Shown here: positions 3,475-41,521 of the stretch, piece by piece
Numbering within the stretch: position 1 is the stretch's first letter
Layout of the letters: the number at the start of each line of letters is the position of its first letter
DNA from: Candidatus Nitrosopelagicus sp.
Lineage (GTDB): Archaea > Thermoproteota > Nitrososphaeria > Nitrososphaerales > Nitrosopumilaceae
Direction of reading: 5' to 3'
Assembly: GCA_028345195.1 (NCBI GenBank)
Contig: JAOMCX010000006.1
Span: forward strand, 1 to 64,000
Length of the DNA stretch: 64,000 bases
Translations under genes and position numbers: made by a program
The notes under the pieces: generated by a model
The model's database searches: none
What the model was told of the DNA's origin: nothing
What the model saw: the letters and a program-made list of their open reading frames with translations, nothing else

Positions 3475-4503
3475 TTGAAGATCTGGTTTGACATTCTAAC
3501 ACCAAAACAATACTTGTTTTTTGAATATTTTATACAAAAACTTAGAAAACAACACAAGATTTTTTGTACATCTAGGAAATATGAACAAGTAAATGGTATT
3601 GAAAAATTTGGTACACTTAATTCAGTAATAGTTGGAAAACATGGTGGAAAGAATAATGTAAGTAAATTATTAGCAAGTTTGGATAGAAGTAAATTATTAA
3701 CAAAGAAAATTGAAAAATGGAGTCCAGATTTACTAATCAGTTTTTGTTCTCCTGAAGCATCTAGAGTTGCATATGGATTAGGTATTCCGCATATAGCATT
3801 TTCAGATTCACCTCATGCAAAAGCTGTAATGAGATTATCATTACCTTATACTACAAAATTACTAATACCATGGATTATTCCAAAACAAGATTTTGATGGA
3901 TTTGGTATTGATTATAAAAATATTATAAAATATAGAGCAATTGATGCAGGAGTAATTATTAAAAATTATAAAAAAAATAAACAAAAGAAATCAGAAGAGA
4001 GGAAAATAATTTTAATTCGACCTGAAGAATCTGAAGCTGCATATATTACAAAGAAAAGTAAAACGATTAAAATTATTAAAAAAATTGTTGAAGACTTTCC
4101 AAATGAAGAAAAAATTGTATTATCTAGATACAAAGATCAATCTAAAAACCTAAAGAAGATTTTTGGAGATAATATTTCTCTTTTATCAAAACCAGTTAAT
4201 GGAAAAGAATTATTAAATAATATAGATTATTTTATTGGTTCAGGAGGAACAATGACTGCAGAATCAGGATTGTTAGGAATTCCAACGATCTCAGTAAATG
4301 CAGTGCCAAACAGGATTGAAGACTTTTTAGTTAAAAAGAGAATAATTGTTAGAAGTGAGAATCCAAATAGAATTTCTAGAGAAATTCAGCAGTCACTAAA
4401 TAACCTCCAAATTATAAAGAAAAAGAAAGAAAAAGCTAGAAAATTAGTTGCATCATTTGAGGATCCATATCAAGTTCTTTTAAAAACAATGAGATCATTA
4501 TAA
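3475..4503 (+). CDS. DUF354 family protein (glycosyltransferase-like fold)
   Basis: The 342-residue product begins MKIWFDILTPKQYLFFEYF, the DUF354 signature (MKIWFDI.TPKQ), and carries a C-terminal SGGTMTAESGLLGIPTISV segment like the nucleotide-sugar-binding loop of GT-B glycosyltransferases. Biochemical activity of the family is not established to my knowledge; a role in glycan synthesis is an inference from the fold. The start is TTG at 3475, chosen because it gives the conserved first residue and lies about 30 nt below an AT-rich element (near 3440-3448). It is divergent from the Rossmann-protein gene and followed by tRNA-Gln. Confidence 0.75.
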   Translation: MKIWFDILTPKQYLFFEYFIQKLRKQHKIFCTSRKYEQVNGIEKFGTLNSVIVGKHGGKNNVSKLLASLDRSKLLTKKIEKWSPDLLISFCSPEASRVAYGLGIPHIAFSDSPHAKAVMRLSLPYTTKLLIPWIIPKQDFDGFGIDYKNIIKYRAIDAGVIIKNYKKNKQKKSEERKIILIRPEESEAAYITKKSKTIKIIKKIVEDFPNEEKIVLSRYKDQSKNLKKIFGDNISLLSKPVNGKELLNNIDYFIGSGGTMTAESGLLGIPTISVNAVPNRIEDFLVKKRIIVRSENPNRISREIQQSLNNLQIIKKKKEKARKLVASFEDPYQVLLKTMRSL

Positions 4504-4540: not shown

Positions 4541-4612
4541 AGCCCAGTAGTGTAGCGGCAAGCATAGGGGCCCTTGGAGCCTTTGACCTCGGTTCGAGTC
4601 CGGGCTGGGCTA
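4541..4612 (+). tRNA. tRNA-Gln (anticodon TTG), with C33
   Basis: Folds as a complete cloverleaf: acceptor AGCCCAG/CTGGGCT with A73, D stem GTGT/GCAT, anticodon stem GGGGC/GCCTT, loop CCTTGGA, four-base variable region, T arm CTCGG-TTCGAGT-CCGGG. The anticodon at positions 34-36 is TTG (Gln). Archaeal tRNA-Gln genes normally have CTTTGGA in the loop; here base 33 is C rather than the near-universal T. No CCA is encoded and no intron is present. It is flanked by T-rich DNA and lies between two convergent genes. Confidence 0.93.
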
Positions 4613-4621
4613 TACTATTTT

Positions 4622-5392
4622 TCAGAAATCTAATTTTGTTAGTAATTTTGTGGCGATAACAAATAGAATTGCTGCTAAAGCAACTAAAAGTAACATTTCA
4701 GTAATCACAAAATCCGTAACTTGACCAAAAATTCCAGCTCGTATGATATCTACCAAATATGATAATGGATTTAAATAAAATATGGTTGCTAATGGTTGCG
4801 GTGCGCCCTGAACAGGATAAAATGCCGTACTTGCAAATGCGCAAAAAAGAAAAACTGTGTTAATAATTACATTAAATCCTTCACTAGAACGTAGTTTTGT
4901 AGAAATTATCGATGCAATTGAACCAAATAATATTGCACCAACTACTGAACCAAAAATTATTAGCGGAATGGTCACAATACTAAATTCAACAGACTGGAAA
5001 AATACAGGATAGCCTACTGCCGTAATTAATGCAGCGCTAAATAATCCAATAATTCCAATTGTTACAATATTACTTAGGATGTAATGAGTTCTTGTGAATG
5101 GACCAGACATGATTTGTTCAAACATACCATGACGTCTATCATTCCAGATAATTATTCCAGAAATTAATGTACTATTCATAATGTTAAACCCAATCATTCC
5201 AGATGCAAGAAATGCAGGATAATCTAGATCTTTTCCTCCAAACGGAACACTATCAATTAATGAAGTATAAGCAAAACCTGCAACAAAAATATAGATTAAT
5301 GGAAAAAGTATTTGCCAAATAATAAATCCAGGATTAATAGAAATTGTTAGATTTCTATTTACTAGTCTAATTATTGGATTAATTCGAATCAC
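4622..5392 (-). CDS. ABC-2 type exporter permease
   Basis: Membrane half of an ABC exporter. The 256-residue product has about six hydrophobic spans and the ABC-2 signature between spans 2 and 3 (NDRRHGMFEQIMSGPFTR, near residues 84-101). It overlaps the upstream ATPase gene by 14 nt on the minus strand, so the two are translationally coupled and form one transporter of the DrrAB/NodIJ type. The substrate is unknown; such exporters move lipids, polysaccharides or drugs. Length is normal for the family. Confidence 0.88.
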   Translation of the reverse strand: MIRINPIIRLVNRNLTISINPGFIIWQILFPLIYIFVAGFAYTSLIDSVPFGGKDLDYPAFLASGMIGFNIMNSTLISGIIIWNDRRHGMFEQIMSGPFTRTHYILSNIVTIGIIGLFSAALITAVGYPVFFQSVEFSIVTIPLIIFGSVVGAILFGSIASIISTKLRSSEGFNVIINTVFLFCAFASTAFYPVQGAPQPLATIFYLNPLSYLVDIIRAGIFGQVTDFVITEMLLLVALAAILFVIATKLLTKLDF

Positions 5393-41431: not shown

Positions 41432-41446
41432 TTTTAAAATTAAAAG

Positions 41447-41521
41447 TGGGCCTGGAGTGATTTGAACACTCGATCACTGCCATGTCGAGGCAGCATCATA
41501 ACCAAACTAGACCACAAGCCC
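41447..41521 (-). tRNA. tRNA-Val (anticodon GAC), with C33
   Basis: On the minus strand: acceptor GGGCTTG/CAGGCCC with A73, D arm GTCT..., anticodon stem CTGCC/GGCAG, loop TCGACAT, T arm GAGTG-TTCAAAT-CACTC. The anticodon at positions 34-36 is GAC (Val). The base before it is C where U33 is nearly universal (archaeal tRNA-Val usually has CTGACAC-like loops). No CCA is encoded; no intron. Confidence 0.92.

Follow-up and report, generated by a model that had tools for sequence, protein, structure and literature searches.

C33 in place of U33 in the glutamine tRNA genes of Nitrosopelagicus and its association with a G28oU42 pair

The window, a stretch of 64,000 nucleotides of a Candidatus Nitrosopelagicus assembly, carries a tRNA-Gln(UUG) gene with C at base 33. 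U33 is nearly universal in tRNAs and is a textbook invariant, since the U-turn in the anticodon loop depends on it. Both glutamine tRNA genes of the genus (UUG and CUG) encode C33. We consider it likely that they yield genuine, functional tRNAs whose transcripts contain C33, and that these are most probably used in that form, together with a softer anticodon stem. A tolerated C33 is the best-supported reading and is favoured over C-to-U editing of the transcript.

Structure and conservation of the tRNA-Gln genes

The following features of the window were used:

3475..4503, plus strand: ORF of 342 aa flanking tRNA-Gln, putative glycosyltransferase/DUF354-like, kept beside tRNA-Gln family-wide
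4541..4612, plus strand: tRNA-Gln(UUG) gene (ARAGORN and Rfam RF00005); no other UUG-reading Gln gene was found in the genome
4567..4583, plus strand: anticodon stem-loop of tRNA-Gln(UUG), GGGGC-CCUUGGA-GCCUU
4573, plus strand: base 33 of tRNA-Gln(UUG), C and not U (T in DNA), read from the bases and conserved in the genus
4574..4576, plus strand: anticodon UUG (ARAGORN, Rfam)
4622..5392, minus strand: putative ABC-2-type permease-like ORF (named from its own sequence), flanking tRNA-Gln with the same synteny
41446..41521, minus strand: tRNA-Val(GAC) gene, loop TCGACAT, with C33 at 41487 (ARAGORN, Rfam, census)

The tRNA-Gln(UUG) gene scored 51.7 bits against Rfam RF00005 (cut-off 29), in agreement with the ARAGORN call. 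Every stem pairs and the conserved motifs of the D- and T-loops are present, as expected of a functional gene with an intact cloverleaf. Base 32 is also C (4572), G37 and A38 follow the anticodon, and two G-U pairs lie in the anticodon stem, G27oU43 (4567/4583) and G28oU42 (4568/4582). A first-pass annotation had described a clean cloverleaf with the loop CCTTGGA and C33, and base reading and both programs confirmed this. Its usual archaeal Gln loop, CTTTGGA, was recovered in genes of the family and among the matches listed in a phylum-wide scan, and the second C33 tRNA it had seen in the window is tRNA-Val(GAC).

Base 33 was then counted over whole genomes. In the assembly from which the window was taken (1.12 Mb, 31 contigs, 85.5% complete), 3/40 tRNAs lack T33, namely Gln(TTG), Gln(CTG) and Val(GAC). 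The same three have C33 in a closed genome of the genus, G019 (3/42). A closed genome of another genus, G017, has one C33 tRNA among 42, Val(GAC); its single Gln gene is UUG with U33, and no CUG Gln gene was found there. The CUG gene of the genus, almost a duplicate of the UUG gene, likewise has C33; in the present assembly it lies at a different locus (G000:C12:40285-40356; L033, L043).

Conservation was surveyed with a Gln pattern that left bases 32 and 33 open, and genes were counted by hand from the resulting table. A Gln gene with C33 was present in 31/31 Nitrosopelagicus genomes, which include single-cell genomes, MAGs and a one-contig genome. By isoacceptor, C33 was found in 27/27 UUG and 25/26 CUG genes, or 52/53 in total. 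The lone exception is the CUG gene of the Caspian MAG casp-thauma4 (G061:C20, L185), which reads U32U33 beside a UUG gene with C32C33. As G061 is nested beside the present genome within the C33 clade of the permease tree, its U33 looks like a reversal in one isoacceptor of a single MAG.

Two simple explanations can be judged from these counts. Conservation across 31 genomes of such different kinds excludes chance, and the probability that C33 is a sequencing or assembly error is practically nil. That the gene is a backup or a pseudogene beside a normal U33 tRNA-Gln is very improbable. It is the sole UUG gene, the CUG gene has C33 as well, and no U33 Gln gene was found in the present assembly or in closed G019; moreover, all stems are intact and the C33 gene is kept genus-wide. 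For Gln, C33 is thus encoded, fixed across the clade and unaccompanied by a U33 replacement gene, as in a natural C33 tRNA. Among the three options first considered for C33, tolerance gained support from genus-wide conservation and from the lack of U33 Gln genes, and the backup gene was rejected.

Recurrence in other genera and association with G28oU42

For base-by-base comparison, 48 Gln(UUG) genes of the family were used, five of them from Nitrosopelagicus. U33 was found in 41/48 and C33 in 7. In many genera the UUG gene lies between the same two protein genes, which makes the C33 gene an orthologue of the U33 gene; at this ancestral locus, U33 changed to C33. A restriction of C33 to Nitrosopelagicus was rejected, as Gln(UUG) also has C33 in G031 (genus g13) and G040 (genus g3), with sisters G012, G002 and G024 having U33. 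In trees of the two flanking proteins, G040 grouped with G024 (99/99) and G031 with G012 (91/65 and 84/95). From these relationships, C33 in Gln(UUG) probably arose about three times, separately; short-tract recombination, or one gain followed by losses, keeps some probability. Outside the family, all Gln genes among the matches listed in the phylum-wide scan have U33 (at least about 50, hand count), and no viral copies of tRNA-Gln were found.

In several Nitrosopumilaceae genera, Gln(UUG) contains an insert of ~20-30 bases after the 5' acceptor strand (AGCCCGGTAGAGGA...CCGCCGA[A/G]TGTAG; L072-L076, L191, L199, L070, L200). The genes of G031 and G040 carry it in their 5' half. The insert is probably a noncanonical intron, and ARAGORN misses or mis-ends the genes that bear it.

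The C33 genes share a feature of the upper anticodon stem. G28oU42 was present in 7/7 C33 Gln genes, from three lineages, and in 1/41 U33 genes of the same set; the other 40/41 have G28-C42 or A28-U42. G27oU43 is common in U33 Gln genes too. Counted by lineage, C33 occurs in 3/4 lineages with the G-U pair and in 0/17 others (Fisher's p ~0.003, calculated by hand for a pattern spotted post hoc and resting on three events). The exceptional U33 gene, in G004, has G28oU42, a hint that softening of the stem may precede C33. The idea that a G28oU42 stem requires C33 was rejected on account of this G004 gene and of the G061 CUG gene.

In a folding model, U42 weakened the anticodon arm by 2.6 kcal/mol. 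With C33, bases 33 and 37 were predicted to pair at about 10% instead of about 1%, and GGGCCC self-pairing became stronger, an effect offset by U42. These values are no more than suggestive. C33 could still permit a loop resembling the U-turn, in which the 33-to-36 phosphate contact is weaker; the softer stem top could offset its cost by making the arm less rigid and by reducing C33-G37 pairing or GGGCCC self-pairing.

tRNA-Val(GAC) (in the window and at L262, L298 and L163-L165) behaved differently. It has C33 in 11 or more of the family's genera, with U33 in genera g9 and g10 and in members outside the family among the matches listed. Its anticodon stem contains no G-U pair. C33 is therefore not always dependent on such a pair, and the coupling is not general. 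In genus g15, base 32 of Val(GAC) is also C, and two genomes of that genus, G174 and G215, each gave two matches to the C33 Val(GAC) anticodon-to-T-arm pattern.

Editing, wobble modification and decoding

A post-transcriptional change of C33 to U33 by a tRNA cytidine deaminase would leave the mature tRNA ordinary. Such editing has a precedent at another position, base 8 in Methanopyrus (CDAT8; PMC3695527), and the long retention of C33 in tRNA-Gln and tRNA-Val, with repeated origin in one family, is what an editor that made C33 harmless would lead one to expect. Against this, C33 affects only 3/42 tRNAs, far from the pattern of a CDAT8-like system, in which most tRNA genes are affected at one position, and a literature search found no report of editing at base 33. 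No PF00383 protein was found in the present assembly (85% complete). Closed G019 has a single one, of the dCMP-deaminase type, which genera with U33 Gln also have; no PF00383 deaminase specific to the genus was found in this search, which covered that one deaminase fold. C-to-U editing of C33 is possible but unsupported, and we regard it as unlikely.

A second alternative is that C33 is adaptive. It would block Elp3, leave U34 of tRNA-Gln(UUG) without cm5 and so tune the decoding of CAA and CAG beside the CUG tRNA. Human ELP123 binds C33 tRNA-Gln(UUG) and acetyl-CoA hydrolysis is not triggered; in yeast, U33C abolishes mcm5U34 (PMC11096365). Loss of Elp3 as the cause of C33 in the genus was rejected, as Elp3 is intact: it scored above the curated cut-off in 77/81 family genomes, the present one included, and the residues equivalent to the U33-coordinating human R242, R402 and H476 are conserved (R226, R386 and H456). 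The CUG gene of the genus, with none found in G017, also fits an adaptive role. Against it speaks the presence of C33 in the CUG tRNA, where U34 is missing, and in Val(GAC); escape from Elp3 is irrelevant for both. C33 as an adaptation of this kind appears quite unlikely.

The modification state can be considered apart from its cause. The human and yeast requirement for U33, together with an intact archaeal Elp3, leads to the prediction that tRNA-Gln(UUG) of Nitrosopelagicus is without cm5U34; the U33 need of the archaeal enzyme is here extrapolated from its human and yeast counterparts. By analogy with human Elongator, this tRNA would escape cm5U34 formation by Elp3 while other U34 tRNAs would be modified, and the extra CUG tRNA would perhaps be the main reader of CAG. 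A depletion of Gln codons was not seen: usage was normal, at 30.5 per 1000 in the genus and 29.8 in other genera (mechanically called ORFs).

Significance and comparison with known systems

In eukaryotes, U33 is also the trigger of Elongator. Nitrosopelagicus, a marine ammonia-oxidising archaeon abundant in the ocean, is a natural lineage in which all Gln tRNA genes have C33, Elp3 is present and Gln use is normal, and it thus provides a ready test of both the U-turn and the Elongator rules. Retention of C33 in the mature tRNA would mean that an elongator tRNA can do without U33 when its stem is suitable, whereas editing of C33 would point to a so far undiscovered archaeal enzyme for tRNA editing. 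A wider proposal can be put forward tentatively, and with more doubt than confidence: that loss of U33 is recurrent and structurally coupled (C33 with G28oU42) in Nitrosopumilaceae, that it removes tRNA-Gln(UUG) from wobble modification by Elp3, and that one of the ocean's most abundant archaea thus reads all its Gln codons without the U-turn base. The C33 Gln tRNAs are a new case of a known rarity. Their interest is raised by recurrence, by the link between C33 and G28oU42 and by the conflict with what is known of Elongator.

The Methanopyrus CDAT8 system is similar in that tRNA genes carry C at the place of an invariant U. There, 30/34 tRNAs of M. kandleri undergo C8-to-U8 editing by a dedicated deaminase (PMC3695527), whereas 3/42 tRNAs are concerned here and no dedicated PF00383 deaminase was found.

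Mammalian initiator tRNA-Met has a natural and functional C33 (PMC8080527, PMC9023262). In contrast, the tRNAs described here are elongators, and passage through the A site is required of them at two codons for Gln and two for Val.

The engineered U33C mutants of tRNA-Gln concern the same tRNA species and the same base change (yeast SUP70, PMC3664417; human tRNA-Gln(UUG) with ELP123, PMC11096365). Yeast cells whose only tRNA-Gln(CUG) carried U33C still grew and showed a mild phenotype (PMC3664417), and the Elongator trigger was lost in the human system. Those are artificial mutants, whereas C33 is the natural wild type here.

A close likeness is to tRNA-Cys(GCA) of Sulfolobales, an archaeal elongator in which C33 is fixed clade-wide and is accompanied by a G-U pair in the upper part of the anticodon stem, G27oU43 (PMC7668247). 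The combination of C33 with a G-U pair at 27-43 or 28-42 is found in the Gln tRNAs described here and is absent from Val(GAC). The present case differs in that Gln and not Cys is concerned, that all Gln tRNAs are affected, that the distinctive G-U pair is 28-42, that one of the tRNAs has U34 and is a possible Elp3 substrate, and that the change recurs in three lineages.
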